From Muricea muricata (taxonomy: Eukaryota; Cnidaria; Anthozoa; Malacalcyonacea; Plexauridae): a stretch of DNA of 64,000 bases. The first letter of the stretch is position 1. Each line of letters begins with the position of its first letter. This document shows, piece by piece, positions 18,232 to 63,577 of the stretch. The position numbers were made by a program, and so were the translations under genes. Below the pieces are notes generated by a model. It saw only the letters and a list, made by a program, of their open reading frames with translations. It was not told the DNA's origin and searched no databases. The stretch is from NCBI GenBank assembly GCA_963855995.1, contig OY979718.1, positions 31,872,982 to 31,936,981 of the forward strand, given 5' to 3'.

Positions 18232-18814
18232 AGTGAGCCAATGATTAAATTTTAATTATTTTGATGCATCGAATGCAGTGAAAAAAAATTATTTTTGGTC
18301 ATTCCACACAAAATTTTAGACTTTGTGTACAGTATTATACATTGTATTATTGTTTGCAGCGTTTCCATGTCAGTAAATTTCGGCTCAAACTGTTGAAGTC
18401 AGCACAGAAAGTTGATTGTAGTCGTCAAATTTAAAAAAAAACGTCGGCAGGCTTACATTATCCGGTTAGACTTGTCACTCGTGAAAAATCTAACACTCAC
18501 CACGCGCAAAGGGTTTGGCATGCTGAGTAAATGAGTTGTATGTGGAATTTAATGCCTAACATAAGAAAGTAGTGTGAATAAATAGCTAATTTTGCTATCT
18601 TTTTGGACATTTTGGCAGTCGATTTTTGTTTAAAATTGACACGCCAAAACGCAGGAAATAGCATTTGCGGGGTTCTAGTTTTCAAAATTTTCTGGTGGAG
18701 CATGCCCCCAGACCCCCCTAGAGGCTCGTGGTTACGCCACTCGCGGACGCCTTCGGCGTCCAATTTTTGGATACGGTCAGATTTTATGCTAGATCCGCCC
18801 CTGGATGATCAGCC

Positions 18815-20726
18815 CATGGTATTTCACAATAAACTAAACGATAAAAACATACTGAACTTTGGCGCTTCAAAAAAAAAACTCGACTTTGCTCGAAATGTTG
18901 AAGTTCTGTTTGGAAGTTGAATGTACTGTAAAACGTTATAGTTATGGACTTCATAGTTCACATCATAGCCTTTGCATGCCTGGCTGGAAAGTTTGAAAAT
19001 TGCACGCCCGTGATTTCGAAAATTTACTATGAAATGTATAGAGAATGTCAAAACTGCACAACCAAGATCTCGATTGCACAATGCAAACTTTCCAGACTGG
19101 ATTGCATGTAATTATATACATCATTTGTATACTGATACTGTTTTATGATACTGCAAAGGTGGTATTAAATGGTATGTATATATGTAATTACTGGGAGGTA
19201 GTGGTGGTATGATAGAGCATTTAGTACATGGCCAAATTCAGAAGTTGTTGAAAACTGGATGCGACAATGTTGTGGGGGCAATTACATAATGATTGTTCCT
19301 GGTTGTCAACAGTATTGTTTGCGACATTGTTGTACCTGATTGTAGGCTGACTCAGGCTCAACAATATTGTTGAGTATTGTTGACAACCTGGAACAATGTT
19401 GCCCCAAATGCACTGTTGCATCCTGCATTCAATAACCTGTAACAACTTGTAATTTTTGACATCAGATTTGTTAATTAGCTGCAGTTTTGATAACCTTTCA
19501 AGATTTGCTAACCTTCCAGATTGTCAGAACCTGGTTATGCTTCTTCCCTGAGTTGGGAGGTTGATATTAATATATTTGATTAATTAGTGTTCTTGTTCCT
19601 CTTGAAATTAATTGTTCTTAAAGCCTGTGAAAATGAATACCAGTATATGAGTTGCTTCCGACAAATTATGAAGCACAAACCATGTATTTTCTTGTCACTG
19701 AGTAATTTAGCTGACATGTCAAGCAGTGGCATAGCATAGCACTGGTGCCCACCTGCCAGCTGGAACTGTACAGTACAGCTGTGAACTGCAATGGGTGATA
19801 AATGAAAATGATTATGCTAATATGTAGTTTCTAAGATGTAATACCTTGGCTCTTGAGTAAGATTTTAAAAATTCTGATGGTTAATGAACTGGATACGATG
19901 TAGTTAAGTATCAATATAATTGCTTAATTATTTAGAACCTAATCCCCCCTATTTTAGTGCCGGCCCCAACCCCCTAATAGTGACACAAATGTTAAGCTGA
20001 GCAATGGCCTGACATGGTCTGTCAGAGTACAATTTTTCTTCTTGGTCCTATGTGTTATCACTTAGGGCTTAGGCCTTGTCCCCATCAGTGGTAAATCTAC
20101 CGTTGACACATTAATTTTTTTGGAGGGAGGAGGGGGTGTGAATATACATACAGTATATCTGCCTGACTAGTTGCTTTGGAAATCAACCTCATTTCAAAAG
20201 AAATTAGTTGGGCAGAACAATAGAACATGAATATATGAATATTCAACCACCTCCTCCAATTAAAGCACTAGCTAGTAGCTATACCCCTGGTCTCCCTTAA
20301 TGCATTTTCGCTATTTTAATGTGTTTTCACCGTCCGTCCACACCAATATACTCTAGAATATGCGAAGCCATTCGAAAACGCATGCTGTTTTATTGGCTTG
20401 GTTTAGGCAGTCGAAGACTGATCGCCACATTTGTATCATTTCGATGAATTCCTAATCAGCGCTTTCTAACTGCTATATAATTATCATTTATAGGCCGGGG
20501 GCAGTTGTTCAAAGCAGGTTTAGCATTAACCCTAGATTAAAATTTAATCCACTGTTTTTGCATTTCAATATACTTAATCAGAAATTAAAAAAAACAACAT
20601 TTTTCATTGATTTTAATCCCTGCCTGTAGCTCTCAGGGGACCTTGCATGAGATTAATTTAATATCACAGTACTAGCATGATAAATTTAATATCACACCCT
20701 ACTAATATCACAACTGAGGACTGGAC
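18815..20726. repeat. 1.9-kb dispersed repeat, copy 1
   Basis: Near identical to 26741-29386 (copy 2, which carries a solo LTR), from catggtatttcac to ctgaggactggac. Inside are an older palindromic miniature element built on acaatgttgt / acaacattgt (about 19259-19430) and a degraded hAT-like miniature element with a GGAGGAGGGGG run and matching inverted tail (about 20105-20265). No coding region is supported, so this is probably a non-autonomous transposon or repeat of unknown class. Confidence 0.85.
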
Positions 20727-24175: not shown

Positions 24176-24721
24176 ATGGCAGCTTTTAAAGTTTTCTTCC
24201 TCGTTGTTATTTTCGTCGTTTGCTTTGGAAGAACTCTAGCAGTTGACGAGTGTCAGTACGATTATGAGTGCTCTGGCTCAGAAGTGTGCTGTAAACCAAG
24301 ATGGTCGTGGGAAGATAATGAATGCGCTTATAGTTGTGTCGGGAAGTCTTGTGATTCAAACAGTGACTGTGGAGGCGACTATTGCTGCAACAACATTTGT
24401 CGCTCGAGCTGTTCAGGATACTATTGTATTCTTGATTCCGACTGTGGTGGTGACAATGAATTTTGTTGTGACTATTCTTGTCAGATAGGCACCTGCGGAT
24501 TGCCGGATTGGACTGTAGCTATAATAGTGCTGAGCATTCTTGGGGCTGCCGGAATATTCGTTGGGATCTTCCTCTGTGTTTATTGCTCGCGGAAACGCAG
24601 TAGATCTCCTGGACTGCTGGTCCACCAAGCACCAGTTGCGACGGTGCCCGCCGCCACGATTGTCGCTGGTTCAAACTACAGCTATACTCAAGGACCACCA
24701 CCAGTTTATCAACCACAATGA
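24176..24721 (+). CDS. cysteine-rich single-pass membrane protein with PPxY tail, paralog 3
   Basis: 181 aa, intact and intronless. Signal peptide ends near FGRTLA. The three modules keep the cysteine pattern (KPRWSWEDNECAYSC, SNSDCGGDYCC, LDSDCGGDNEFCC). The transmembrane segment begins PDWTVAIIVLS and is followed by SRKRSRS. The tail is nearly identical to paralog 2 (LLVHQAPVATVPAATIVAGS...) and ends PPPVYQPQ. The extracellular cysteine part instead shares WSW and CRSSCSG with paralog 1, so similarity among the three is mosaic. Its 3' flank lacks the 2-kb transposon found after paralog 2. Confidence 0.85.
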   Translation: MAAFKVFFLVVIFVVCFGRTLAVDECQYDYECSGSEVCCKPRWSWEDNECAYSCVGKSCDSNSDCGGDYCCNNICRSSCSGYYCILDSDCGGDNEFCCDYSCQIGTCGLPDWTVAIIVLSILGAAGIFVGIFLCVYCSRKRSRSPGLLVHQAPVATVPAATIVAGSNYSYTQGPPPVYQPQ

Positions 24722-26431: not shown

Positions 26432-29400
26432 ATGCTGAAATCTAAGACATTTGTAAAAAAGACGCGGAAAGGTGGTGTTATGAAAATCGTTCGAGAACAA
26501 TATCTTCGTGACGATGTGTGGTGTGGAGTGAAATGCTGTTCACGTTGTTGTCAAACAGAGCCTATACTCGATGCTAAACCCGAAAGAAATTCATTTGTTT
26601 TTAATTTTCCACATTTCATTGTTCCTGATACCAATATTGCTCTACACCAGGTATGTTGTATGTGGTATAAAGATCGCGAACTAGTGTTAATTTGTAATGA
26701 AAGTACAGTTTGCCTTATGTAAAACCATCAGGCATCAGCACATGGTATTTCACAATAAACTAAACGATAAAAACATACTGAACTTTGGCGCTTCAAAAAA
26801 AAACCTCGACTTTGCTCGAAATGTTGAAGTTCTGTTTGGAAGTTGAATGTACTGTAAAGTTATAGTTATGGACTTCATAGTTCACATCATAGCCTTTGCA
26901 TGCCTGGCTGGAAAGTTCAAAAATTGCACGCCCGTGATTTCGAAAGTTTACTATAAAATATATAGAGAATGTCAAAACTGCACAACCAAGATTTTGATTG
27001 CACAATGCAAACTTTCCAGACTGGATTGCATGTAATTATATACATCATTTGTATACTGGTACTGTTTTATGATACTGTAAAGATGGTATTAAATGGTATG
27101 TATATGTGTAATTACTGGGAGGTAGTGGTGGTATGATAGAGCATTTAGTACATGGCCAAATTCAGAAGTTGTTGAAAACTGGATGCGACAATGTTGTGGG
27201 GGTGTTACGAGAGTAAATGTGAGTGTAAAGATTCTCGCGTTTCGGTCCGGTTTCACTCGCAACTAATATCAGTGTGACCCAGATACATATATAAACTATT
27301 TATTTCTTAAATTTGTCTAACAGATAATTAGCGTCTCTATAATGTAATCAGATTATTATATAATTATATATATGTCAGTTCAACTTATCTCTCTTCTATG
27401 TCTGAGCACAACGCTTTCGGTAATGGTTCTTTCTTGATTTTCTTCAGTAAGAATCTTTAACTTCTTTATAGCAAATATTCACACGGCACACGGCCTTACA
27501 CAAATTGTGTGTAGTTGTTAAGGCACTAACGCCCTTCAATCCAACTCCCAACACTACACTACACACTTAACACCTAAGTTAACACTGCTGAGGAAGAGTT
27601 GTGCTCGACTTTTTATGCTGTTTACAGGGGAACTTATCATAAATTGCATAGTCATTTCCTTGGGAAGTTTTTAGAGTGTTTTTGAGTCTTGAATCTTCGT
27701 ATTGATTAATTGTTACGTATTTGTGGTAACTTGTCATGTCCGATAATGTAAGGTATTTGCTTGCTCGTGCATGCAAGAACTTCCCATGCGTAAAGGAACT
27801 CAAAGGAACTTCCCATATCTAAGTTCCTTAGCTATTTTATATATAAACTATCTTATTCTAAAACTAATAATACATTAAAATTGTTGTTTTATATAAAATG
27901 TCATATACATGATATTCACTATCATGTAACAGGGGGCAATTACATAATGATTGTTCCTGGTTGTCAACAGTATTGTTTGCGACATTGTTGTACCTGATTG
28001 TAGGCTGATTCAGGCTCAACAATATTGTTGAGTATTGTTGACAACCTGGAACAATGTTGCCCCAAATGCACTGTTGCATCCTGCATTCAATAACCTGTAA
28101 CAACTTGTAATTTTTGACATCAGATTTGTTAATTAGCTGCAGTTTTGATAACCTTTCAAGATTTGCTAACCTTCCAGATTGTCAGAACCTGGTTATGCTT
28201 CTTCCCTGAGTTGGGAGGTTGATATTAATATATTTGATTAATTAGTGTTCTTGTTCCTTTTGAAATTAATTGTTCTTAAAGCCTGTGAAAATGAATACCA
28301 GTATATGAGTTGCTTCCGACAAATTATGAAGCACAAACCATGTATTTTCATGTCACTGAATTAATTTAGCTGACATGTCAAGCAGTGGCATAGCATAGCA
28401 ATGGCGCCCACCTGCCAGCTGGAACTGTATAGTATAGCTGTGAACTGCAATGGGTGATAAATGAAAATAATTATGCTATGTAGTTTCTAAGATGTAATAC
28501 CTTGGCCCTTGAGTAAGATTTTAAAAATTCTGATGATTAATGAACTGGATACGATGTAGTTAAGTATCAATATAATTGCTTAATTATTTAGAACCTAATC
28601 CCCCCTATTTTAGTACCCGTCCCAACCCCGTAATAGTGACACAAATGTTAAGCAAAGCAATGGCCTGACATGGTCTGTCAGTGTACAATTTTTCTTTTTG
28701 GTCCTATGTGTTATCACTTAGGGCTTAGGCCTTGTCCCCATCAGTGGTAAATCTACCGTTGACACATTAATTTTTTTGGAGGGAGGAGGGGGTGTGAATA
28801 TACATACAGTATATCTGCCTGACTAGTTGCTTTTGAAATCAACCTCATTTCAAAAGAAATTAGTTGGGCAGAACAATAGAACATGAATATATGAATATTC
28901 AACCACCTCCTCCAATTAAAGCACTAGCTAGTAGCTATACCCCTGGTCTCCGTTAATGCATTTTCGCTATTTTAATGTGTTTTCACCGTCCGTCCACACC
29001 AATATGCTCTAGAATATGCGAAGCCATTCGAAAACGCATGCTGTTTTATTGGCTTGGTTTAGGCAGTCGAAGACTGATCGCCACATTTGTATCATTTCGA
29101 TGAATTCCTAATCAGCGCTTTCTAACTGCTATATAATTATCGTTTATAGGCCGGGGGCAGTTGTTCAAAGCAGGTTTAGCATTAACCCTAGATTAAAATT
29201 TAATCCACTGTTTTTGCATTTCAATATACTTAATCAGAAATTAAAAAAACAACATTTTTCATTGATTTTAATCCCTGCCTGTAGCTCTCAGGGGACCTTG
29301 CATGAGATTAATTTAATATCACAGTACTAGCATGATAAATTTAATATCACACCTGACCCTACTAATATCACAACTGAGGACTGGACATGTGACACTGTAA

Positions 29401-32303: not shown

Positions 32304-35300
32304 GTAAATCATTCAATACAGAGTATTAGAAACTTTTTAAATTTATTATACAGGGTGTCTCAAAAAACCGGACAATTAACATATAACTATATATTCCATT
32401 CAAAATAATGAAGAATTTGTAAAGAACATGCACGTGTACTTAACTAATAACTAATTCCATAACTAATTTTCTCACAAGAATATATAAGAATAAATAAGCC
32501 ACAAGAATAAGTCACAATACACCGCTCCTTGTTTTCCAAATGCTTGCCACGAGAATGTGTATCTACATGTATTCCTATTTCCCATGGCCTAAGGATTGTT
32601 TTTTATTAATCCAAGCCCAATGTAAATAAATATATTAGGTAACATGGGATATTAACGAGTTCCTATGATTCGTTATTTCTCATGCTTTAGATCTATTTTG
32701 CTATTCAACTGTTTTATACTTTAAGTATGCACCATATTACTGTTCCTTTCCAGTAACATCTCATTGTTTGAATAATTATTGTACAGCAATTATTGTACTG
32801 ATCAAGCCTCGACTGGCAACCCAATCTGAATTCATCTCTACTACAATTGTAGTTCAAGATTACGTCAAATCTCTCGAAAACAACGGAGAACTGTTGGACA
32901 AGCTTGCGTGGGAAGGTGCTAATTCTGCTGAACCAGTAAGTTACATAACTTGAAAAACACGTTTAGACAAGATACTCTTCGGAGCGTTACTCACCTGGGC
33001 TTATACTGAAATGATCGTGTAAAATCACTAAAACGTGTTGTGGCACTGAAGTGGCAACTTGGTCCTGATAGAAGCCTAAATCGAAAAACGCATTTCCTTT
33101 GAGAGATATATACATGCAGGCGAGACGTACTTAAAACGGAAACTACTGTTCTCTTACATGAGGCGGAAGAATGTTATTCTGTGCCGTCATAACAACAAGA
33201 ATGCAATTTGACTGTCTCGTTATTGGTCGCTTTTCAGCCATATAATACAGTATTGCTTCCACTTCTTGCGCACTGCTTGAAAAGAAATATTAAATTACTG
33301 TGTTTTTTCACGTAGGTCACAATATGCCTTATGATATAAAGGATATGCGTTAGTTAACCAGACTTCCTGTACGTTTTAGTTAGCTGATGGAAAATCGAAA
33401 CAAATTTTATATCCCGAACATTTACCTCTGGCCAAACTGCAGTCTGGTATCAAGTCTGGAAAGTACTTGCAGGTTCGTTGGCTGGTTCTTTAGTTGCTGT
33501 GTACTTTATGTAAGAAATCATGAACTGCCTTCAACATACTGCTGGCCTCACTAACACACTCCATCTCAGTACATCATACACGTAACGTAGTATAAATTTG
33601 TTTTAATCGAACTTTTTTCGATTTTGTATACGCGAATACATCCACACCGTGACCAACACGAAACTTGTTTTCCTTGTGTCATCTGTGTATTGCCATGCGA
33701 TGCTTTCGGAAGGGAAGGAAGGCCTTTCGGTGACAAAACGTTTCGTGTGCAGACGAAGCCAACGAAAACGGACACGTGTAGACGGGAATCTGTGCTGTAG
33801 ATACGCAGAGGATGTTTTGTAGAGAATGTGTTATGGGTTTGGCCACTATTTGGTTTTGGTAATTGTTGGGAAAGGCTGTTTATATTTTGGGGATTCGCGT
33901 GGCTTTCAAAAACTTAAACTTAAAACGTATGGTGTGGTCTGGTGTTAGGCTTTTCTTGGAAAAATTTCAAAATGTCGGACATTTACAAAAATTAAACATT
34001 CTGTTTGTTTTTTTTTAAACAGGGAAAGTTTTTCGCTAGTAGGTAAGAGAAACGCTTAAATATATCGCTAACCATAGCAACAGCTTCTGCTATGTACATA
34101 TTTCTAAGGTGACGTTACACGATACAATTTCTGGTATTGGGTTCATGTTAATCAGTTCCAACCAAACTCGTATCGTACTGTGCCGCAAATGACTTGATAC
34201 AAATGTGCATGATGTAGAAAGACAAATTTGATCGAGATATGATGAAAGATTTCAGTGGATTACCAGTAGAATACACGGTGAATTTAGCTCTTGTAGATAC
34301 CGGGTCGCGCAAAAAATGCCCCCCCCCCCTTTTTGTGTTGTGTCGTGAAAAGGACAGAAGACATGCAGCAATGTCTAACTTACATTTTTATACATGCTTT
34401 AAACATTTTTGTAAAATATTAGCCGAGATATAGGTTTAAAGTCACGGTAGTATTTTCGGCAAAAGATAAGGCCTAAAAGGGTATATAACACAAAAAAGCT
34501 CTTATGCAGGGTTTATTAAAAAGTAGACACTTTCAAGTAGCTGCAATTATATTAGGCTAAGCGTATTCTGCTGTATTAATTTGACAGCTCTGAATACTTT
34601 GAACGAAAAATACAATGTTTTGTACACAAGGGAAATCGACGATAATACCAAAGAGTGTAAAATCTTGTGCTGCTTTTCGAATCATTTAGTTCGAAGTATT
34701 CCGAACTGTCAAATTAATGCAACAGATTGCGGCTAATTTGAATTTGCGGCTACCTCCTCGTAGCATAATTGTAAACTATGCTCGTCATAAAGGTGAATCA
34801 ACTTTCAACTTTTTTAGAGACAACTATTTGGAAGCTAGTGTTTCAGTTTCAGAACAATGCGATCAGGTTAGCACGTGCTACTTCTCTGTAAATTTAAATA
34901 TCTACAAGTGTGGTGTGCGCATATAAAGTTTACAAAAAAGCTTAAAGCCCGAGTCCACTGACGATGCTCTAGTCTACCACTGTTGTTGCTAAATGGGGAG
35001 CGTAAAGGTCCTATGCATCGAGATTTCACGCCACACTTTTATTATATCAACATAAAGAACATTCTAAATGATTAAATAAAACATTTTTTACAACTCTCTT
35101 ATCTTGCTCTAACGTGCAGATGTTGAGCAATGTTTCATATGCAAATTAATATCACTGTGATGTCTCATTGCATAATAAGTAACTGCATTATCGCAAGAAC
35201 ATAGAATGTTCGACATCAAACCACATAGTTTGTGTGTGAACATACTAGAAGCTCTTTTATGTTATATTTTGATAAATTGAATTGATTGGCATCCTGCAAT

Positions 35301-38300
35301 ATTAGTTTGCAGTTAGACATTATGCATTGTGGCATCACAGTGATGTCAAATTGCATATCAAACATAGTTCAATATCTACACGACAGCAATTTATGAAAGT
35401 TTTGGGAAATGTTTTATTACGTCATTTAAAATGTTCTCTGTGCTGCCATCATAAAAATTTCATGCGAAATTTTGATGCATACGGCCTCTAAGATTCACGA
35501 CACGGCAGTTCGACGACTCATCCTCAAGCCTAATAATTTTTACATAGAACACAGCAACTATTTGTGGTCCCAGGAGTATTTCTCAAATGTGTAGTCATGC
35601 CTAATAAAGGTCAAACGTAAGCATTTTGCTACCACGTGGAAAGTGTTACTGAACTCCGCCTGATAGAAGATACCACATCTCAAACATCCTTTAAACAGTT
35701 GTTGCAAGATATTATAACACCATGTCGTCGAGTTTGCCGCCCCTTGTCGATCATAAGCTCCCTAGTATACAGCCAATATGCAGCGACAAAAAATTATGGG
35801 ACTAATCACAGTTTCACATGCAATGTAAAAATATATCATACTAAACACTATATTTTTAGTAAAACCACCAATGTGCTGATTTTATTTGAAACGTTTGCTG
35901 CATTTTCTTGATTTATCTTTGGTCGCTCATGTTTCACCTTTCACTATTGTCGATGTCAAACATAATTGAATTAGCTGTATATGCTCTGTCCACTACAGTA
36001 ACTCACGTGAGACTGATATCCAACTTTTGTTTGTTTCCAAAGATATTTATTCAGGGGCTAGTGAACCTGAATCGCGCAGTGAATGAGGACGTTGTTTGTG
36101 TTGAAGTTCTTCCTGAAAAAGACTGGACCTGTCCTTCATCGATCGTCATCGATGAAGGTATCAAGGAAGATGAAGCAGAGGAAAACACTGCCAAACAGGT
36201 TTGTTGGAATAGTTTTGAACTCTTGCAATCGTAAACATCAAATCACAAAAGTCATTTCGTTGCGGTCAGCTAGTGTTAGTACGACTGGTTTAAAGGCTAG
36301 GTTTAATTGTGTAGCCGATGAGGAAAAATTTCAAAATTGATTATCCTGTATGTATCTAGATAAGCTTACAAACCAGATGTAAACAAAAAGAGAAAATTCT
36401 GGGTTCATAGTTAATGTATCACAAGTATACAGTACCGTATATTAAAACGAAATAGGCGCTAAGAAATTCCGATTTTTTTGCAAAGCGTCCATCAGCATCA
36501 TTGGGTGCATTTCGAAATCAGTGTATGCTTTTCGTTTTGCAACTGTTAATAAAAAGCGCTTATTTTGAAATAAGCTAATATGAATCTAAGTAAAAGATGA
36601 AAATTTTAGATTTCCTATCCTACTTCAAATACAATCTGCACTCCTATTTCAAAGGTGCTACCACAACTTGAGATTTCATATGTGATATCTTTGGGATTTT
36701 AACAACTTAATAAAGTGCACAGTAGATGTGACGGTGTTTATGGTACGGTGAAGATTCTGCTTGGCTTGGCACCACACCACACCACCATGGGCATCCATTA
36801 CTGTTATTAAATGCTAGTCCGTTGAACAGATTTACTTTTTGTTTTGTAGAGTAAGGAAAGAAACAAGCGAAAACAAAAATCAGGAAAAGTAAGTAAATAA
36901 GTGATTGTAGTTTTTTGTGTTTATGTATGCAGGATCACGTCATGGGTTTAACGTGTTGTGTACGTCAGGTATATAACGTGTAGGTATATTTTAAAATGCA
37001 TTTAAATATCCAAACAGATAAATGTCTAATATTCTAGCAAGCCGTTATACCTACTGTATTTTTTTACTCTTTATTTAAAGGTCGTTGGAATTATTAGGAG
37101 AAATTGGAGACCATATTGTGGCGTCCTATCTCCGTCTCCCAACCCTCAGGTACTATGATGACAAGGATCATTACACGTTAACATGGAGCTTTATAAGAAA
37201 CACACTTGTAGGGAGGTGAGTCCGGGATTGGACGCACCGTTAAAATGTACCGAGGATTTTACTTTATACAGTATATAATTTCGCGTTTCGATAACAAACA
37301 TTTTAGAGGCCAACATACTATAGAATCAAACTACATGCAACCTGAAAAATGCTGTACAATATTACCTCATTCTTGTCGGAAAATGCATGCCTTTGTACCA
37401 AAACATTGCCAAAACTTATTATATAAATCAAATAAACCCGACCGCGAAGAACAAATTTCGGTCACCATGTTTTCATATGTCACGTCAGCAGGTGGGCTCG
37501 ACTTTGGACGCACCTCCTCTTAGCCAATAGGAAAGCGGCTAATACGCTAGGTATGAGATAATAGATTTGAGTACGGCTACGAGAACCAGTTTAGATTCTC
37601 TCGCGTGCAAACCCGTATTGTGTAAGAAAACCAAGATGTTATCAAGTTTGCAATAGCTGATTTTGAATGGCAAAATCTTGTAGCCGTGTGCGTTCTCATA
37701 GTCGTAATCAAATCTAAAGCTCCCTTTTGATGTAATCGCTGTTTTGAATGGCCATGCTAACCTACAGATAATTTTCGATATCGTGCAATTTTTCGTCTAA
37801 GCTACACGAACTTCATTTCGTAAATTTCAGGCAACCAGGCATCTATTTGTTGCTGCAGAGAAACGAATACCACGAATTCGAATCGAGACAAGACAAGCCG
37901 AGATTTTAAAAGGACAGAAGATCATTGTCAGTATTGACTCGTGGCCAAGAAGTTCCAAATATCCAGTTGTAAGTAGATGTACGCTTATACTGCGCGGCTG
38001 TACTGTACGTGCTGATAACGGGATTGTTTCGTTTTATCGAAGCTTTTCTCAAATTGCTTTCCCCGTTCACAAAAAAATAGTCGGAACTATAGTATGGTCA
38101 AAATATTCGTTTCTGTAGCGGGATTTGAACTCGCATTTTCGGCTTTCTAGCCCGCTGGTCTACCAATCGAGTGCATATATAGGTAACGGGGAGAGGTCAT
38201 TCAACTCTGAATTTAGTTTAATGTAAATTTTAAAATTTGCCGATGAAACATTCATTACATAAAAAGACAGGAAGAAGACGTACACAATGAAATACAGTCG

Positions 38301-41300
38301 GTGGCGAAGCCAGCCCGACATTTGGTCATGCAAATGCAAATTTTCCAGTGTTTATAGACCGTATAAGGAATCAACTTCTAAAGAAATGAATAATGATAAT
38401 GATTTAAATTAGCATAGCATGACCAAATTGTCTGGCTTGCTTCGCTATTGAATACAGTACATAACCATAATTCAACATATTAGACTGCATGCACGGAACG
38501 AGGAAGCCAAATTTCCTTTCCCATGTTGGACTTGTTGAATTAAGATGCCAAATTGATCTTCAACAGGTTTTCAGGTCCAGCCCCTTTCTATTGTTTTTGC
38601 CAGTTACGCTTTGATAGGAGCTACAGTACCAAAAGAAAAATATTTCTATTGCCAGCGACATAAACAGTTGTACAACTTTACATGTAATCTTCGTTGAGGG
38701 CGAAAACAGTTTTTTAGTACCATAACGAGACAAACAATTGTCTTCTCAAACAAGTTCGGTGTGGTACAATGAACGTTAGTGTTTGGATAAAAACAATTCC
38801 GAAATACCGAAATTTGCTCAATAAAAAGTGTTTTTCGATCGAAATTTTCTGTGTAGATAGGCGGGATGTAAATTGCCTTACAAAACATCGTCTTCGGAAA
38901 CAGCTTCGGCTAAGCAAGGCTAAGTCCTTATTGTAGGGCAATTTGTATCAACACGAAAAATTTCAATTAAAAAAAAACACTTTTTATTGAACAAATTTAA
39001 GTATTTCTGAATCTTGTTTTTGTCTAAAAACTATCTAGAAATGTGAAAGAGATATTCAAGGTCATTTGTATCGAGTTTTTTTGCTGCAAATTGTGTTTAT
39101 TTTTTGTTTGAAGCGAAAGTCTAACGTCTGTCAGTGTCATATCGTGAAAGAGTTGCCAGCATTAGGATATTATAAATGATAATATAATATGCACTTCCCG
39201 ATGCCTGTGTTTGGACACGAGGTAGTACATATATTATGTACTTTTTACGTTCGGGTAGAAGAGGTAAATGAAATTTGTTGTAAAACTTTTAATAAAGGTA
39301 TATACTTCAATAATTGTAACAAAAATACATATTTACTTTTACTTTGGCCGATTGTTTAAAACAAGGTTTTACATTGCATGGACAAACCAGCTAGATCTTT
39401 TATACCTGAGAAGAACAATTATATGCAAAACTAAATGTTTCGTTACGTACAAGACGTAAAAGTGCTTTTAAAATTTGACTTATCCACGGTTTAAGTTAAA
39501 CGTCTGTGATACAACCGGCGCCTGATAAAATATTTAAAAAATATATATATGTTATTTACCGGATAGGAGGTCCGGATGGGGAGAAACTGTGCCCGAGCTC
39601 TTGAGCAAGGGCACAGTTTCTCCCCTTTCGGACCGACGCTGCCGGTAAATAATAGATTTTTCACTCAAAACAATAAAACTCCGAGCAATGCGGCTTTGCC
39701 ATTTCAATTTTTTATTGAAAACATTTTTAAGTTAAAATTATTTATACACGCAATTCAATTTTGCACACGCGAGATTTGAAACAAAGTTGCCATACATGGT
39801 AAAAAACAAACCATTTATGGTAAGCGCTAGGGAAAACCGTTAGCGGTCCGGTTGAGTGGTCCGTATAGGGAAAAACCGGACCGCTCGTCAGCCAATCAGA
39901 TTACAGGATTCAGTGGGAAACCGGACCGGGAAAAAATAAATATATTTAGCTTGCGTCTATTTGCGCAGGGATTGTTGAGCACGCGACCAAATTTGCCGCG
40001 CGTGCTTGCCGTTTGCCGCGCGTGCATGCCGTTTGCCGCGCGTGCTTGCCGTTTGCCGCGCGTGCTTGCGTGCGCATTCGTTTGTTGATGTTCGTTTATT
40101 GACGTGCGCGTTCCTTTTTTTTACTTTTGTTTAAATTTTAACGAGAATTCGAAGTTCCGATTCATTAATCGCTTTGTTCTGCAAGAACTGGTTGAAATTT
40201 TATGAACTAACTTAGCTTTCACTAAAGTTTTACGTAACAACATCATCATATGTTGGAAGAACTATATTTTATGTGGATTTTATGCAGAACATACGTGTAA
40301 TCTTTAAAAGATTGCAATGTTTTTACCTCGACACAATATTCTGTCTTGGCGTTCAAGCGAATGTGAAATCGAAAACGAGGACATCGGTGCAAGTGAGCTA
40401 AACCAGTCCGACGAGACAAAAGAACAATGTGCAAGTGTAAATTTTCCGGATAGCAGATCAGTACAAGACCTTACATCTTTGTTTTCAAGGCTTTCGTTGC
40501 ATGAAACTGAGGGAAACAGAGACACCGACGCAAAAGATGAAAGAAATCCAATTGATGTTGGTTTTAAAGAGCAGCATGCCAAGCAAGAGCATATTTATTC
40601 CTCGTGGAGCCTTTCTAATACCCAGGGACAATTTATGAGCAACCAGGACTTTACATGTTATTTTGCATTACATTTTCAACCACTGTTTTACGCATACTTA
40701 CAATGCTGCTGTGGAAGCGAAAATTGTTATCTGCCGTCAACACAAACCGTTACCAAACCGCGCGAATCTTCATCGCACTGCACAAACAGCACCTTTTTAA
40801 ATCTTTTCAGTCATTTCTACATACATCGTTCAAGCTTTTGGTCATTCCTGGTAAATTTACTCGCCCGGGCAGGTCGCCTGAAGGCACGATTCGACGATTA
40901 CGCGAGAAATGATGTGTGCACTGATGATGTTGGTTTGAGCGAGAGTTCTGCTGAAGTGCGACGGAAAGATAGCGAAGGTTCGTTATTGGTACGGCGTGTT
41001 CCTTCGCAGAAACAAGAAACTCGTCTCGAAGAACTGGTTGCTTGTACAAGTGATGAGCATTCACCGGTGGTGGTCGATGGAAATGACCGGCTTGCGGGCG
41101 AATGCGAATTTAATTTCAGCGAAGAATCTTTAACAGAAGGATGTGGGGCAGATATAACAAAACAGGGTGCGTTCGACGAAGTTCGTGAAATGATGTTTTC
41201 AAAACACGGAAATAAAAAATTAAAGCAAGACTTCTTGGCTTTAAAAGATGGACAATATTCGGATGCGGAGGTGACTTTAACCGAGTCTCTCGAAGAAGCG

Positions 41301-44300
41301 AGGTTAAGGTTAATAGAAGATTTTGCAGAAGAGCGGACGTTAGTCGGAGAACAAGAATATCTAACATCAGAACGCATCATTTTCCTTGAAAATGAAATAA
41401 CTCCAGTAGCAGAGCAACAACATTTTAATTCACAGCAAAAGATTCATCCTGATGAAGAAGTTATTTCATTCGAAAGTGTAGAGGAGTATAATCTAGCAGA
41501 AGAACATGTGGATCATTGGAGAGAACTTACCTTCGTAGAAGAACAAGATAGTTTCATGGAAGAACTTGCTTCAACTAATAATCAAGAATACACTGCTGTG
41601 AATTGTTGCAGAGCTATTGATAAACTACTCGCCGAAATTAACGCTCACATGCGAGGAATGATTGTTGAAGAAAATACTTGTGACGATGGACTGGAGACTC
41701 GTGGGAAAGATCAAGGGACGTGTCTGGCTGGGCAAGAGATTAATCTCGAAAGACAGGCTATCTATGCAGAATGCAAAAAGGGGTATTTGGAAGATCAGGG
41801 ATCTAATTTCGAGGGAAGAATTTATCTGGAAGGGAAAGAAATGTATTTTGAAGGACTGGGAAAAGAGACATTTCGGACAGTTAGAAACGCATCCCCAAGA
41901 GCTAGAGAATTGCTGGAAAAATCCAGGAACTTATCTCGACCTCTATAATAAAACACTAAGTTCAAGTTGCTTTGTAAATTACTATATGTAACGAAATAAA
42001 TTAAAAATGTTATGTTAAAAAACATGTTTGATCTGAACATGTTAGATTTGCTCGATGAAGGTTGTTGGAATTTAATTAACTTCATCGTACTTTATGTTAT
42101 GAGGGTGGTTAATACCAAATAAAGAAGGACTTGTGCGTTTTGTGATACCAGCATTATATTTTTAGGAAATGTACACTTCAATATGACAAAGTGTATTAGA
42201 TTTGGACACAATTTAAAAGTAAACCCTGACGACGAAAAATTTGGGATTTCTTACATTTTACTATTAAATTCCTAGTCCATAAAAACCCCATGAAATTTCA
42301 AGTTAACACATTAGAAAAATCAATGGTATCATTCGAAAGGTTACAAAAAACTATGTATAGAACGATTGACTGACACTGTCAATTTTCCTAGCACAACTCA
42401 AGTTATAGCTATTTTGAGCTGTTAAAATGAGCTCAGAATCGCGCAGAAAGAATTGGTACTACTATACTAGCCCAAAAATGCGTTTTGAACGGTTCGTATC
42501 TAAAGAAGTATTTAGGAATAAAAAAATTCCCTTAAATAACCAATACATAGTTTTTCACAAGGTTTCAAATGATGTGATTCATTTTGTCATCAGTAAAGTT
42601 GAAATTTCATGCATTGTGTTAATATAAGACTTTAACCGTATCTAACATTCGTTGTCGTATGAAAGTGTACATTTCTTTTACATATGGTACTGGTATCACA
42701 AATTCCACACTTCTAGCACGTAGCTACCTAACTAGTGTTATTTTGATGGTCTTGTTATGTTGACTTTCCCAATAAATACTATGGTTACATGATGCTCTAT
42801 TCTATCCAATGTATAATGCCGTATGAAAGCAGAGCATTGGGTTAGAGTACGACTACAAGAACCAATGCACCTACAAGATTTTTGTTTCTTAAATTCTGTC
42901 CTACAAACCCGTATTCGTCTTTGCTTTCGATCCTCTTCAGTTTTCAAGGCACATTATTTAAAAACAGGATACTATGAAGTTTGCAATAGCTGATTTTCAG
43001 CGGCGAAATCTTGTAGTCGTAGTCAACCATAGTCAAATCTAACGTTCCCTATTATATCGTCTGGACACTGCCTTAATATCTATTAGTTAATTTCACGACA
43101 TGGTTAGGCTTTTTAACGTAGCTCAATACCGTTTTAGTGGTAAAACGGTTCCAAATCAACTACTGGAGTTACATTAAGTCCTTAACAGTCTTTTGTATAT
43201 ATTTCTACAGCCCACTCCCCCGGTCCATACACCTGTAATGACAATTGTGGATTGTAGTATTTGTGCATATTGTGGGATATCACGTCTCTGCTTATAACGT
43301 CCCGTGTTTTATGACGTGTTTTCTTGTGACATTTTGTCGCACCGTATAGTTGAACTTTTTCTTCAACTTTTGATAGGGTCATTTTGTCAAAAAACTTGGC
43401 TCCATTGGTGATAAAGAGACGGAGAATGAAGTTTTACTTTTGGAACATGAAATTCCTCATTTGCCATTCTCTACGGCAGTTCTGAATGATTTGCCGGAGG
43501 AAACGTGGTCCATTAGCGATGAGGTAATGTCATCTCGGCAGATATCCGCCATTACTGGGAGGAGTGAATGTATATGAAAAAATTTTTCATGTTCAAACAT
43601 CAACAACGATAAATAATGCACGTACTATAAATTATTTTGACAAATATACTAATTAATACCGTTACTCGTGGGTGTATATCCACACTGGGCAAACTGAAAA
43701 ACATGCATAACCACAGGAGGGGAGGGATCGAATCGAACCTATGGCCGTTGGAGTGCGGTATCGACGTAATCTTAAGTGCAATCATCATTTTATGTCACAC
43801 ATAAACTATTACATGTGGGTACACACAAGATATATAGCTGGTCAGCTCTAAGCCGTTCCTTACAGCAATGGCTAGCGTTTCTTCAATTTTTTGCACGCGA
43901 AAATTTCACATTCGTTTGACTTTTCACATGTTAAGTGTTCCAATTTTACATGCGAATGTTTCAAAGCACTAATTTCACATGTGAAAAGATGTGTAAAATT
44001 TCACATCTGAAATGATTTCAATTACAATTACAACATTTTCACATGTGAAATGTTGTAATTCCACTTAAATTTTCAAACTATATCAGAATTTTTTGTCAGT
44101 TAAAACTCCTGCTCAATTGCTTTGTAATATGATTTCTGCCAAGTCCGTGCATTATAAATATATCATTGAGCGATGAGAAGAAACGGTACCCGTCTAGCTA
44201 GCAAAGCCAGCAAAATTTTAAATATTTGTATGTTGTGTATGTAGGAGATAAAGCTTCGTCGAGATCTTCGAGACTTGCCAGTCTGCAGTGTTGATCCACC

Positions 44301-55208: not shown

Positions 55209-55499
55209 ATGGGGAAAGAAAAAAAGAAAACGAAGACACCAAATATTGCGATTAAAAAAATGGAAGGTTGGCAAATCAAACTAGAATTTTTTTATTCGAA
55301 AGATTTTACAGAAACCCAGTCGTGGCCTCCTCGACATCGAAAAATGTATGTAAAACCGTCGTTAAACCCGCCTGAAAAACCTCCTGTACCTGACTCTATC
55401 GAATGCGAGAATGGTTCAATTAAAGCCACAACGGAAGTCGAATCAATGCCGCAAGATGTCAGCTTGCCCACAACAACCAATGTGTCGTCGGTGGCATGA
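55209..55499 (+). CDS. hypothetical 96-aa basic/proline-rich protein
   Basis: ATG at 55209 followed by GKEKKKTKTPNIAIKKMEGW, then WPPRHRKMYVKPSLNPPEKPP and a polar tail ending NVSSVA. No domain recognised. The left breakpoint of the 2,848-bp tandem duplication falls in codon 20. The second copy (58116-58347) therefore lacks the first 19 codons and has a stop just upstream in frame, so only this copy can be expressed in full. Confidence 0.4.
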   Translation: MGKEKKKTKTPNIAIKKMEGWQIKLEFFYSKDFTETQSWPPRHRKMYVKPSLNPPEKPPVPDSIECENGSIKATTEVESMPQDVSLPTTTNVSSVA

Positions 55500-55674
55500 T
55501 TTACCATGATGAGTCGACATTGTGGGAAGGCATTTGGACGACGCACTGCCACCATTGAGCGATTCAATTTCGATAAGTACTCTCAACCATCCCTTAATGC
55601 AATTCCTTATAAATATTAAAACTGGTTATTACGCTCATTTGGAAGATTATAATAGAACATTGTGATATAACACT

Positions 55675-56019
55675 CTAATTCCAATGCTTTTTAAATGTGA
55701 TCATAGAATTGTTCATAAATATTTTACAATTTAATAGTGTGACATGTCGCTTGCCACAGTTTCTCGTCCCATGATGCTTGTCAGTTTCTTTTTTACCTTC
55801 GGGCACCGCAAGTAATTGTTTTCCCTCATGAAAATTTACACATTTTATCGCCGCGTCTGTTGTTTTTATGTTAATTTTTAGATATTCTAGCTTCTTGAAC
55901 GTTAAATTTTGATATGTGATGCCATCAGTACCGAAACGTTTTCGTTCGCGGGGAAAAATCTTGCAATTCATCATCGAGCATGTCGTCCAAACGACGTAAA
56001 ACTGAACCGAAGCGGCCAC
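55675..56019 (-). CDS. hypothetical 114-aa ORF, conserved in both tandem copies
   Basis: MAASVQFYVVWTTCSMMNCK..., open in both copies (second at 58523-58867) with two amino-acid differences. Overlaps head-to-head with the plus-strand MSSKRRK ORF. No domain recognised. The copies are too young for open frames to show selection. Confidence 0.25.
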   Translation of the reverse strand: MAASVQFYVVWTTCSMMNCKIFPRERKRFGTDGITYQNLTFKKLEYLKINIKTTDAAIKCVNFHEGKQLLAVPEGKKETDKHHGTRNCGKRHVTLLNCKIFMNNSMITFKKHWN

Positions 56020-56135
56020 ACAGCCGCGGCCACGACGTTCTCCAACGGATCCTTCAATCCATCAAAGACACAAAAACGGATTTGTTAGTTTGTAATTCGA
56101 GGATTGCTGCCCTAGCAGCTCATTCTGATGGTTAA
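55980..56135 (+). CDS. short ORF MSSKRRKTEPKRP, possible gag-like remnant
   Basis: 51 codons starting MSSKRRKTEPKRPHSRGHDV and continuing VLQRILQSIKDTKTDLLV, helical. About 110 bases on, a different open stretch reads EFDVPEVHSQNLQRLQKCS. Together with the Ty3/gypsy-like RT debris 900 bases downstream, this may be what remains of a retroelement's first ORF. Repeated at 58828-58983. Confidence 0.25.
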   Translation: MSSKRRKTEPKRPHSRGHDVLQRILQSIKDTKTDLLVCNSRIAALAAHSDG

Positions 56136-56584
56136 GTTTTTCCAAACGATGAAAACGTTTGTCAGTTTCGGTGGGAATCTCGAAGATATCGCTGTTAAGC
56201 CATCAGAATTGACTATTCAGTCTTAGAATTGACCGTTAAGTCACCAGCAGCAGTCACTCCGACGGAGTTTGATGTCCCTGAAGTACACTCTCAAAACTTG
56301 CAGCGCCTTCAGAAGTGCTCGCTTCTTTTTTGGAAGAAAATTCCCAGTGAAAATTATCATATGCATGACCAGATCAATTGATGCCCTCGTAGCGCCAACA
56401 CGATGCCAGCATGTGGTGCAGCAGGTGCCATGCCGAAATAAGAAGTTCGTCCAAGAACGGGGCAAAGAGCTGCAAACAGTCCAACGTGCCTTACCGAACA
56501 CGGCAGGACCCCTTTGTACACGACGCGATGGCTTAGAATGTGGCTCTTTAGTGCACCATTGTCATTAGCGACCGGTGTAACCAG

Positions 56585-56705
56585 GTCACTAATGAGGAGG
56601 GGGGGTATTCATATACTCACGTTCTACCGAACGATTAGATCGATTGATTTTTGGAAAAGTCGTCGAACAGAACACGAAAATATGAATAACTCCCCCCCCC
56701 CCCCC
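56585..56705. mobile_element. degraded hAT-like miniature element (copy 1)
   Basis: A G-run followed by tattcatatactcacgttct pairs with agaacacgaaaatatgaata followed by a C-run. The second copy lies at 59435-59553. Related to the intact element at 47519-47697 (tattcatat, gttctg and C/G runs in the same order). Confidence 0.55.
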
Positions 56706-56904
56706 TCCTCCCCTCTATATTATCGCTCTAGTTACGTCTCTGTCACTAACTTTTTGCTTATCGGGATCAGCTTACACACACGTATTTAACTTTCACCCAA
56801 CAAAAACATCATGTGTTTACATCAAAGAATACACAGAATGAAGTCCACTTTGACCTTAATCATCGACGACCAGAAGAGTAAGATCAAATGGAATATATAC
56901 AGAA

Positions 56905-57085
56905 CCCAAGATTGGAACTCGCGATGCAGTGCCCATTAAACAGTTGCCTCGACGTTTAGCTAATGCACGTCGACCAGTTGTGGAGGAGCAAGTTAATGGC
57001 ATGCTGGGCCACTAGGGAATGAAGTATCCGCCGTGGTTTTAGTATCTAGCCTCATAGTTTTGGTGCGGAAAAAAAGATGGTTTAG
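56905..57085 (+). pseudogene. decayed Ty3/gypsy reverse transcriptase start
   Basis: Reads GTRDAVPIKQLPRRL, then VVEEQVNGML, then after stops and a frame change SSLIVLVRKK. This matches the order of the conserved gypsy RT entry region (DAxPIxQxPRR, EExxxMLxxG, SPIVLVxKKDG). Several stops and frameshifts make it non-functional. The duplicate lies at 59753-59932. Confidence 0.65.
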
Positions 57086-57192
57086 TTGGGTGTTTTTTCG
57101 GGGTTTTCGAAAAGTAGATTTTCGAAAGTTGAACAAAGTAGCGGTGCAATAAAACCCCGCATACTTTAAAGAACCAGTTAATTTTGATTTAA

Positions 57193-57894
57193 GTGGTTCT
57201 TATATACTGTAACTGGCGCTTAGACAGAAATCATGCTAACGCAGTTCTTAACTGGTTCTTATTTCCATTCAAAAACAGCTGTTGTTTTGATAAAATACTT
57301 GCATGCATGCTGTGGATGAAAGACATAATTCATGGTGACAAGGTCGCAGTATTTTGTTTTTTATTAATACCATTTAATACGTGAAAATGCTCAAAATGAT
57401 GTACTACCAGTAAAGGAATTGCTCATGACTAAATGGTTAAAACAAATATTTTTAATAATGAATTATTAAACATACTAACAATTGCCATTTCTGTAAGAGA
57501 TTCGTTTAGGCTCTCCATTTTTTATTTTTGATATATGGTGTATACCTGGCACTACGAGAAATTAAAGAATATCCCTCTCCCTGGATTATAAAACAGTCAT
57601 GCTTTTTGGGATATTATTGTAAGAAATAGTAAAGATATTTGGCGGTTAGAATCCAAATGGTCAGATCACGACCGAATGTTGGCAGAGGTTTCCTCCGAAT
57701 TTTCTTTCAATTTCTCTCGCGCCCACAATCACAGTCGTTAGCGGTCATACAAAAAGTTACCGAAACCCACGGAAAACTAAAGACGTTTACGGGAAAACTC
57801 GGAAATAAATGCGGAGGAGAGGCGAAAACGATCTAAAACATGACAATAGATGATAAAATCACAACGTCTTTACCAAGGGCTGCTTAAGACTGAC
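57193..57894. other. no convincing gene
   Basis: A 63-aa ORF (57193) and an ATG-started Arg/Ser-rich ORF MVRSRPNVGRGF (57657-57836) are open in both tandem copies, but nothing beyond duplication supports them. Confidence 0.4.
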
Positions 57895-57960
57895 ACTTCG
57901 ACGTCGAGGTCGACGTGGTATATCTTTTAAGATATACGACGTCGACCTCGATGTCGAAGT
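57895..57960. repeat. 66-bp CG-rich palindrome (copy 1)
   Basis: acttcgacgtcgaggtcgac pairs with gtcgacctcgatgtcgaagt around tatatcttttaagatata, with two mismatched positions in 33-bp arms. Repeated at 60743-60808, where one arm base differs again. Confidence 0.9.
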
Positions 57961-58114
57961 TCAGTTAATAGTACTGACTCTAGCACTGACTGTCGGTTTT
58001 GTCAAGAATCTGGTCAGATCTGTGAATTGAAAACATCTTCTTTGATTGACCTAAATTTACCACAACCAAAACAGATAAATGTGTAAAATGACCAATAAAC
58101 CTAGGCCTGGTTTC

Positions 58115-60966
58115 GTTGGCAAATCAAACTAGAATTTTTTTATTCGAAAGATTTTACAGAAACCCAGTCGTGGCCTCCTCGACATCGAAAAATGTATGTA
58201 AAACCGTCGTTAAACCCGCCTGAAAAACCTCCTGTACCTGACTCTATCGAATGCGAGAATGGTTCAATTAAAGCCACAACGGAAGTCGAATCAATGCCGC
58301 AAGATGTCAGCTTGCCCACAACAACCAATGTGTCGTCGGTGGCATGATTTACCATGATGAGTCGACATTGTGGGAAGGCATTTGGACGACGCACTGCCAC
58401 CATTGAGCGATTCAATTTCGATAAGTACGCTCAACCATCCCTTAATGCAATTCCTTATAAATATTAAAACTGGTTATTACGCTCATTTGGAAGATTATAA
58501 TAGAACATTGTGATATAACACTCTAATTCCAATGCTTTTTAAATGTGATCATAGAATTGTTCATAAATATTTTACAATTTAATAGTGTGACATGTCGCTT
58601 GCCACAGTTTCTCGTCCCATGATGCTTGTCAGTTTCTTTTTTACCTTCGGGCACCGCAAGTAATTGTTTTCCCTCATGAAAATTTACACATTTTATCGCC
58701 GCGTCTGTTGTTTTTATGTTAATTTTTAGATATTCTAGCGTCTTGAACGTTAAATTTTGATATGTGATGCCATCAGTACCGAAATGTTTTCGTTCGCGGG
58801 GAAAAATCTTGCAATTCATCATCGAGCATGTCGTCCAAACGACGTAAAACTGAACCGAAGCGGCCACACAGCCGCGGCCACGACGTTCTCCAACGGATCC
58901 TTCAATCCATCAAAGACACAAAAACGGATTTGTTAGTTTGTAATTCGAGGATTGCTGCCCTAGCAGCTCATTCTGATGGTTAAGTTTTTCCAAACGATGA
59001 AAACGTTTGTCAGTTTCGGTGGGAATCTCGAAGATATCCCTGTTAAGCCATCAGAATTGACTATTCAGTCTTAGAATTGACCGTTAAGTCACCAGCAGCA
59101 GTCACTCCGACGGAGTTTGATGTCCCTGAAGCACACTCTCAAAACTTGCAGCGCCGTCAGAAGTGCTCACTTCTTTTTTGGAAGAAAATTCCCAGTGAAA
59201 ATTATCATATGCATGACCAGATCAATTGATGCCCTCGTAGCGCCAACATCATGCCAGCATGTGGTGCAGCAGGTGCCATCCCAAAATAAGAAGTTCGTCC
59301 AAGAACGGGGCAAAGAGCTGCAAACAGTCCAACGTGCCTTACCGAACACGGCAGGACCCCTTTGTACACGACGCGATGGCTTAGAATGTGGCTCTTTAGT
59401 GCACCATTGTCATTAGCGACCGGTGTAACCAGGTCGCTAATGAGGAGGGGGGGGGGTATTCATATACTCACGTTCTGCCGAACGATTAGATCGATTGATT
59501 TTTGGAAAAGTCGTCGAACAGAACACGAAAATATGAATAACTCCCCCCCCCCCCTTCTCCCCTCTATATTATCGCTCTAGTTACGTCTCTGTCACTAACT
59601 TTTTGCTTATCGGGATCAGCTTACACACACGTATTTAACTTTCATCCAACAAAAACATCATGTGTTTACATCAAAGAATACACAGAATGAAGTCCACTTT
59701 GACCTTAATCATCGACGACCAGAAGAGTAAGATCAAATGGAATATATACAGAACCCAAGATTGGAACTCGCGATGCAGTGCCCGTTAAACAGTTGCCTCG
59801 ACGTTTAGCTAATGCACGTCGACCAGTTGTGGAGGAGCAAGTTAATGGCATGCTGGGCCACTAGGGAATGAAGTATCCGCCGTGGTTTTAGTATCTAGCC
59901 TCATAGTTTTGGTGCGGAAAAAAAGATGGTTTAGTTGGTGTTTTTTCGGGGTTTTCGAAAAGTAGATTTTCGAAAGTTGAACAAAGTAGCGGTGCAATAA
60001 AACCCCGCATACTTTAAAGAACCAGTTAATTTTGATTTAAGTGGTTCTTATATACTGTAACTGGCGCTCAGACAGAAATCATGCTAACGCAGTTCTTAAC
60101 TGGTTCTTATTTCCATTCAAAAACAGCTGTTGTTTTGATAAAATACTTGCATGCATGCTGTGGATGAAAGACATAATTCATGGTGACAAGGTCGCAGTAT
60201 TTTGTTTTTTATTAATACCATTTAATACGTGAAAATGCTCAAAATGATGTACTACTAGTAAAGGAATTGCTCATGACTAAATGGTTAAAACAAATATTTT
60301 TAATAATGAATTATTAAACATACTAACAATTGCCATTTCTGTAAGAGATTCGTTTAGGCTCTCCATTTTTTATTTTTGATATATGGTGTATACCTGGCAC
60401 TACGAGAAATTAAAGAATATCCCTCTCCCTGGATTATAAAACAGTCATGCTTTTTGGGATATTATTATAAGAAATAGTAAAGATGTTTGGCGGTTAGAAT
60501 CCAAATGGTCAGATCACGACCGAATGTTGGCAGAGGTTTCCTCCGAATTTTCTTCCAATTTCTCTCGCGCCCACAATCACAGTCGTTAGCGGTCATACAA
60601 AAAGTTACCGAAACCCACGGAAAACTGAAGACGTTTACGGGAAAACTCGGAAATAAATGCGGAGGAGAGGCGAAAACGATCTAAAACATGACAATAGATG
60701 ATAAAATCACAACGTCTTTACCAAGGGCTGCTTAAGACTGACACTTCGACGTCGAGGTCGACGTGGTATATCTTTTAAGATATACGACGTCGACATCGAT
60801 GTCGAAGTTCAGTCAATAGTACTGACTCTAGCACTGACTGTCGGTTTTGTCAAGAATCTGGTCAGATCTGTGAATTGAAAACATCTTCTTTGATTGACCT
60901 AAATTTACCACAACCAAAACAGATAAATGTGTAAAATGACCAATAAGCCTAGGCCTGGTTTCGTTG
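58115..60966. repeat. 2,848-bp direct tandem duplication, copy 2
   Basis: Continues from copy 1 and ends at tttcgtt (60960-60966), after which unique sequence resumes. It contains the second copies of the minus-strand 114-aa ORF (58523-58867), MSSKRRK ORF (58828-58983), gypsy RT debris (59753-59932) and palindrome (60743-60808). The 96-aa ORF is beheaded here. Confidence 0.95.
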
Positions 60967-62538: not shown

Positions 62539-63577
62539 ATGGTTTTTATCGGAAAGATTGACCCAGAGATACGCGCATATATTAAGTACAATAAGAATGC
62601 GTGTGTGAAAGATTTGATGAAAGAGACAAATGTATCTCGTGCGCAAATTTATCGAATCAGGAAAGAGCCGCTTCGATTAAAAGCAATGTCAGGGAGGTTG
62701 AAAAGATCTGGTGGTCGCCCTGAGAAATTATCTATACGTGACAAGCGTGCCTTACTGCGCGAAATAAAAGTTTTGCGACGAGATGATGGCAACTGGACAG
62801 TGAAGAGATTAATGGAACAAGTGAACGTCCAACATGTATCTGTTAGAACTGTTACCCGATTTTTACATGCAAATGGATACAGATACCTGCAAGCACGCAA
62901 AAAAGGCCTTGTTAACGAAGCGGATAAAAAGAAACGAGTTACATTTGCCAAGAAAATGATGAAAGAGTACGATGAAGATGTTTGGACGAAGAATATTGCA
63001 TTTTACCTCGATGGTGTAAGCTTTGTGTATAAAAAGAACCCAAAAGACCAGGCCACCGCTCCGACAGGAAAAATATGGAGAAAGGCAAACGAAGGTCTTA
63101 ATTCTGGATGCACTTCAAAAGGTAAGAAATGCGGAACGGGTGGAAAGACTGTGAAGCTTATAGTAGCCATTTCCCATAGAAAAGGTGTCATTTGCTGCGA
63201 AAGGTATGAGAAGATGGATGGCCCATTTTTTGCCTCATTTGTTGAAAAGCATTTTAGCAAATTGATGAAAGCATCCTTGCCAAAACAGTGCAGTCGTAAG
63301 AAAAGTCATTTCATCACTTAACTGCCCACTGCTGAAAATACCCCCACGAAGTCCCGATCTGAACCCTATAGAGAATATATTTCACTTGGTTCGTAAACAA
63401 CTCGACAAGGATGCTTTGGCAAAGAACATTTGTTGTGAGAGCATGGATGATTTGGAACATCGAATCAAAGCAAGGTTTATGGCCATTCCAATCGAAACAG
63501 TTGACAAAACCATATCTTCTATGTCTTCGAGGGTTAAGCAAATAGTTCGCAGGAAAGGAGAACGGCTAAAATATTAA
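62539..63577 (+). pseudogene. Tc1/mariner-type transposase, frameshifted with internal deletion
   Basis: From the ATG at 62539 the N-terminus shows helix-turn-helix DNA-binding regions (VKDLMKETNVSRAQIYRIRK; GRPEKLSIRDKRALLREIK; VSVRTVTRFLHANGY). The first catalytic Asp is in IAFYLDGVSFVYK. The frame stops at 63321 after SRKKSHFIT. In another frame, from 63320, CPLLKIPPRSPDLNPIENIF supplies the third catalytic residue (Glu of PIEN) and the reading continues to 63577. The segment that should contain the second Asp (DxxPxQ/H) is missing between the two parts. This copy therefore cannot be active. Confidence 0.88.

Follow-up and report, generated by a model that had tools for sequence, protein, structure and literature searches.

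A single open reading frame (ORF) of 543 codons was found inside one intron of DIS3, and on the strand of this host gene, in a 64,000-nucleotide stretch of contig OY979718.1 of the cnidarian Muricea muricata, which is referred to as the window throughout. DIS3 is a catalytic subunit of the RNA exosome. On balance we favour the view that the ORF is a protein-coding gene of the host, unspliced at least over its 543 codons and nested in DIS3 with a promoter and a polyadenylation (poly(A)) site of its own, and that its product is an acidic, probably flexible protein of the adaptor type.

A 543-codon frame within a DIS3 intron

The frame had been proposed from an earlier inspection of the letters alone (the sequence-only reading), and its start, stop and length were all recovered when the sequence was re-read: it opens with ATG at position 40317 and runs stop-free to TAA at 41946-41948 on the forward strand. 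Eight ATG frames in the window reach 150 amino acids or more, and this one exceeds all the others, the runner-up being a reverse transcriptase frame of 513 amino acids, and another of the eight, 160 amino acids long, sits within 40317-41948 on the opposite strand.

The host gene was delineated with human DIS3 as tblastn query on the window. This gave 23 blocks, chosen by eye, which lie in order on the forward strand from 26432 to about 53762; 21 of them had an expectation value (E) of 0.001 or better, the weak pair being those at 32855-32908 (E 0.27) and 34795-34842 (E 3.1). In PDB, human RRP44/DIS3 was the best match of the first exon (E 1.5e-20) as well as of the exons before and after the frame (E values listed below), and DIS3L and DIS3L2, where present among the matches, ranked below RRP44/DIS3 for all three exons tested. 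Pfam RNB was matched by both RNB-region exons scanned, and the Pfam scan of the short first exon returned no match. On the RRP44 chain the match before the frame stops at position 414 and the match after it begins at 416, one more codon preceding the donor; with the borders GTT/GTAAGT (donor) and GATAG/GGTC (acceptor) this defines an intron of 5.4 kb in phase 0, within which the ORF lies entirely.

37828-37968, forward strand: DIS3 exon preceding the ORF; its start, taken from the match, is approximate (PDB human RRP44, E 2.8e-16)
37969-43376, forward strand: DIS3 intron, the 11th or 12th, containing the ORF, the preceding exon ending in phase 0 (exon matches and splice borders)
40317-41948, forward strand: coding part of the candidate nested gene, the 543-codon single ORF (ORF list and coding statistics)
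43377-43523, forward strand: DIS3 exon downstream of the ORF, its end set by eye at GAG/GTAATG (PDB human RRP44, E 2.6e-17 for 43377-43541)

The sequence-only reading had placed the frame in intron 12 of DIS3. Nesting and common strand hold, as both flanking exons match RRP44, while the number is either 11 or 12, since eleven blocks, two of them weak, precede the ORF-bearing intron and a piece matching human residues about 329-343 was unrecovered.

The stop-free run at the frame extends over 546 codons, as against a maximum of 191 and a mean of 91 in 300 order-1 Markov simulations of the same sequence, and its 3-base periodicity was reached by none of 1000 simulations. By length and periodicity, the open frame is not a chance product. 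A codon score trained on DIS3 gave +0.086 bits per codon for the frame. The two remaining forward frames scored -0.036 and -0.065 and the opposite strand -0.125 to -0.055; as a control, 165 overlapping chunks cut from the other introns of DIS3 had a mean of -0.174 and a maximum of -0.095. The G+C content of its three codon positions is 0.529, 0.376 and 0.346, respectively, and its synonymous codon use correlated with that of DIS3 at r 0.88, whereas shifting the frame gave r values of 0.62 and 0.73.

Such a frame might alternatively be a copy of a gene that has decayed or fallen silent, or it might be young and devoid of function, and the coding signal, which is weakest in the first third, would suit either. 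However, not a single in-frame stop was found, whereas the two other forward frames contain about 26 and 39 stops over the ORF (rates 0.048 and 0.072), and G is the commonest base at codon position 1 in each of the four quarters of the frame, a count that carries no per-quarter control. We therefore regard decay or lack of function as distinctly unlikely.

Flanking signals and splicing

The eleven most CpG-rich 200-bp windows of the 64 kb all fall within 39821-40220, immediately upstream of the frame, the top three having 28 CpG each against a mean of 6.8 (standard deviation 3.9) in the window. The stretch 39841-40140 has 33 CpG: a minisatellite contributes 15, the 151 bp that precede it 12 and the 71 bp that follow it 6. 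The count of 12 is reached by 2.8% of 6362 windows. This minisatellite, CG-rich with a 20-bp unit, and AATAAA signals beyond the stop codon had been described as bounding the frame, and both were located. At least three AATAAA occur in 0.6% of 180-nucleotide windows. A transcript of the nested gene would probably start in the CpG-dense stretch and end at the AATAAA cluster.

39841-40140, no strand assigned: CpG-dense stretch, the highest peak of the window, with up to 28 CpG per 200 bp; candidate promoter
39890-39898, forward strand: sequence resembling a CCAAT box, where the CpG peak borders its surroundings; weak, as the 64 kb has 7 such sequences on the forward and 6 on the reverse strand
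39992-40069, forward strand: 20-bp CG-rich minisatellite of 3.9 copies
40088-40316, forward strand: presumed leader, with ATGs at 40088, 40202, 40250, 40271 and 40282
41947-42123, forward strand: candidate poly(A) region with three AATAAA, at 41947 (overlapping the stop codon), 41995 and 42118

The five upstream ATGs between 40070 and 40316 compare with 5.2 expected from the window average, so that their number carries no meaning in this DNA, and upstream ATGs as a signature of stress control were rejected on the same count. A leader intron is possible at 40090-40287, with a donor-like site at 40090 scoring 6.4 and an acceptor-like site at 40288 scoring 8.2 (the 14 training donors score 4.0-12.2 and the 14 training acceptors, taken from DIS3, 4.7-12.3), and a splice from 40090 to 40288 is predicted to take out all five of these ATGs.

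Splice-site scores also bear on the possibility that DIS3 uses the frame as an alternative last exon, joined to the exon ending at 37968 and terminating at about 42 kb; the product would combine N-terminal DIS3 with an acidic tail. The upstream exon indeed ends in phase 0, an AG at 40309-40310 would keep the frame of the ORF, and poly(A) signals are in place. This in-frame acceptor at 40310, however, scores 4.2 and thus falls below all 14 DIS3 training acceptors, and the top three acceptor-like sites between 39300 and 40700 (40288, 40490 and 40570) are out of frame. Furthermore, the CpG peak and the long frame beginning with ATG suggest that the frame has its own start, and we consider a last exon of DIS3 quite unlikely.

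Predicted product and search for relatives

Composition bore out the polar N-terminus and the Glu-rich tail attributed to the product from sequence: residues 1-110 are polar and acidic (net charge -10), residues 111-200 are enriched in Phe, Leu, Tyr and Cys (net +2), residues 201-300 again have a net charge of -10, and residues 301-543 contain 17% Glu (net -26). Two hydrophobic segments had also been reported. Hydrophobic stretches do exist within residues 106-141 and 159-192, but they are weak, with a best 19-residue Kyte-Doolittle mean of 0.93 that is unlike ordinary membrane spans, and are accompanied by a still weaker third group at 425-451; a peripheral or partner-binding patch thus fits better than membrane spans. 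Likewise, the internal repeats of the EEQxxF-like and YLEGxxxYFEG-like types are present, in a weak and degenerate form. Structure prediction, which had been suggested as a check, yielded no usable model: AlphaFold2 run on the single sequence gave a mean predicted local distance difference test (pLDDT) score of 33.7 for the whole protein and 39.9 for its last 124 residues, and low pLDDT obtained without an alignment may reflect scarce data as much as disorder.

Relatives of the product were sought in profile libraries, in PDB and in prokaryote, viral and phage collections. No match was obtained in Pfam up to E 10 or in NCBIfam and PHROGs up to E 1. A transposase, reverse transcriptase or other element domain was not seen in the product, whereas the reverse transcriptase and Tc1-like frames of the window do match Pfam. 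PDB returned only two matches (E 1 and 2), to other proteins, which were taken as chance. Neither of 2 pattern matches in viral contigs and none of 94 in prokaryote contigs was confirmed, and the phage collection gave a single coiled-coil match at E 0.9, which recurs across 10 records of Vibrio phages. RNA families and tRNAs were searched for in the 64-kb window and none was found; a literature search found no paper combining DIS3, nested gene and intron.

One named family was considered, namely that the product is a diverged stress phosphatase subunit of the PPP1R15 (GADD34/CReP) type, which would join a membrane patch, acidic repeats, a C-terminal core binding protein phosphatase 1 (PP1) and upstream frames. 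The C-terminal core of this family comprises about 70 residues with an RVxF motif and W and R positions (PMC4394352) and lies on an exon of its own (PMC4394352, PMC10743859). In favour of such an identity are the broad layout, the upstream ATGs and a piece, residues 380-423, that BLAST aligned with the CReP core. The CReP piece was equalled, however, by 292 of 1000 local shuffles and the match to the GADD34 core by 354 of 1000, GADD34 aligned with the frame at E 1.3 at best, and an RVxF-W-AR core pattern was unmatched in the six frames of the window. The core of about 70 residues was not found in the frame or elsewhere in the window, and no downstream exon encoding it was detected, and the profile and PDB results given above point to no such protein. 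This identity is unsupported and close to refuted, and we give it only a very remote chance.

In the nested host gene that we favour, the weakly hydrophobic patch at residues about 106-192 could attach the product to a membrane or to a partner. The product would then most likely be an acidic scaffold or adaptor anchored by this patch, with short helices and the repeats serving as docking sites; an adaptor role is proposed because nothing found suggests an enzyme.

Host gene, mobile element and comparison with known nested genes

The sequence-only reading had left a choice between a lineage-specific gene of the host and a protein made by some undescribed element. Of the two we favour the host gene on account of a codon use nearer to that of DIS3, the absence of a second copy from the window, the lack of clear terminal repeats and the promoter- and poly(A)-like flanks. 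Against the r of 0.88 with DIS3, the codon use of the frame correlated at 0.67 with a Penelope-like frame and at 0.73 with a short Tc1-like frame; with three Cys-rich paralogs encoded in the window, r was 0.51. No second copy of the frame was found in the 64-kb window at the DNA or protein level, tblastn of the frame protein returning the self-match and then nothing better than E 0.48. In a search for inverted and direct repeats, no long terminal repeats bracketing the frame were detected in the DIS3 intron. Three palindromic stretches resembling miniature inverted-repeat transposable elements are present in the intron (38777-39033, 39552-39652 and 42139-42702), none of which brackets the frame, and a 61-bp match of 42960-43020 to 37627-37687 also lies outside it.

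An origin from an undescribed or domesticated mobile element, or from a virus, inserted in the intron would be in keeping with the repeat-rich window, in which a reverse transcriptase frame and a Tc1-like frame occur together with the palindromic elements of the same intron, and with a product that belongs to no known family in the libraries searched. It could also draw on short repeat pairs bracketing the frame: among the 21 inverted pairs listed, two A+T-rich ones do so, as given below, and so do a few short imperfect direct pairs, such as 39351-39374 with 42547-42570 (24 nucleotides, 75%). These short pairs were presumed to be due to chance. The profile searches, the viral contigs, the repeat search and the codon use all speak against an element, and we judge an origin of this kind to be unlikely.

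39709-39734 with 41997-42022: inverted pair bracketing the frame, 26 nucleotides, 77%, A+T-rich
39332-39346 with 42209-42223: inverted pair bracketing the frame, 15 nucleotides, 87%, A+T-rich

Besides the bracketing pairs, several further observations weigh against a nested host gene as favoured here. The coding score is lowest in the first third of the frame (-0.087), yet above that of the other two frames of the same third. When 55 intron chunks were compared with DIS3 codon use, they reached a mean r of 0.77 and a maximum of 0.86, leaving the 0.88 of the frame barely outside; base composition alone thus explains much of the likeness, and this value lends support without deciding the matter. 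Of the donor-like sites in 39400-43300, the highest-scoring one falls within the frame, at 40978, with 9.0 against 4.0-12.2 for real donors, and further ones occur within it at 41167, 41783 and 40851, so that the ORF may be spliced and not one exon. With 15 of its 33 CpG contributed by the minisatellite, the CpG peak may be repeat DNA and not a promoter, and the five upstream ATGs would hinder translation unless removed. Finally, as the structure models are useless, flexibility, the role of the patch and that of an adaptor are guesses from composition.

As to the other features of the window, the reverse transcriptase frame (839-2835, with Pfam RVT_1 in 1294-2832) is presumably, by its look, a Penelope-like element. 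A Tc1/mariner-type transposase at 62539-63574 is split over two overlapping frames with HTH_Tnp_Tc3_2 and DDE_3 pieces, and hence is broken here. The palindrome at 39552-39652 in the DIS3 intron is G+C-rich and present as a single copy in the window, with 32-bp arms that are 88% complementary and a 2-bp loop. Two stretches, 471 and 1459 bp long and with an identity of 97-98%, are shared by the region upstream of DIS3 (18808-20726) and its first intron (26734-27202 and 27932-29386) and are recent copies. Just past the last recovered DIS3 block lies a tandem duplication (55267-60966) of 2.85 kb and 98.9% identity. The three Cys-rich paralogs are single-frame proteins (6155-6715, 13015-13554 and 24176-24721) in which, by eye, the N-terminus is signal-like and a single hydrophobic span lies at the C-terminal end; the one tested (13015-13551) had no match in Pfam, and their codon use is unlike that of DIS3 (r 0.52).

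Since the candidate gene lies in sense orientation and combines a promoter-like stretch with poly(A) signals, some DIS3 transcripts may be cut short by transcription of the nested gene or at its poly(A) site. By analogy with the mammalian cases cited below, the nested gene could thus shorten transcripts of its host, which would then encode about the first 413 residues of DIS3 (human numbering) without the RNB exonuclease domain. A stronger version, in which a lineage-specific gene of unrecognised fold acts as a DIS3 switch, so that its activity truncates DIS3, keeping the PIN-bearing N-terminal part and losing RNB, and the two genes form a see-saw over RNA decay, appears highly improbable to us.

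Nested genes as such are ordinary, same-strand nesting being the less common case. They typically make up 5-10% of all genes, almost none being present in several annotations, and some gene-modelling programs disable them by default (PMC10282587); if transcribed, the frame would belong to a class of protein-coding genes that may escape annotation. In a nested pair the internal gene is typically short and lacks introns, and most pairs are on opposite strands (PMC8467205). The candidate gene resembles the intronless nested genes of animals in being a single open frame in an intron of a long, many-exon gene. It differs from them in sharing the strand of its host, whereas most pairs are on opposite strands (PMC8467205), a difference which also tells against our interpretation, and in that no parent gene was recognised for the frame. 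To PPP1R15A/B (GADD34 and CReP) the likeness is one of broad layout only, in the form of a hydrophobic patch and an acidic repetitive part, and the frame differs in being without the conserved 70-residue PP1-binding core.

The pair H13/Mcts2 offers the comparison that bears on the host, Mcts2 being a retrocopy of a known gene. Here too, a candidate nested gene within its host is preceded by a CpG-dense stretch. At H13/Mcts2, an active nested CpG-island promoter or nested transcription leads to early intronic polyadenylation of the host (PMC13309782), and across mammalian host genes, host transcripts are described as terminating early, upstream of intragenic CpG islands that are transcribed (PMC7470969). 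The two loci differ in that the effect on the host was measured for H13/Mcts2 (PMC13309782), whereas the DIS3 locus is known from sequence alone and has no known parent of the nested gene, and imprinting is not implied for it. If the frame is transcribed, the locus would provide a non-mammalian case, with DIS3 as host, in which it can be tested whether a CpG-dense nested gene shortens the transcripts of the gene that contains it.

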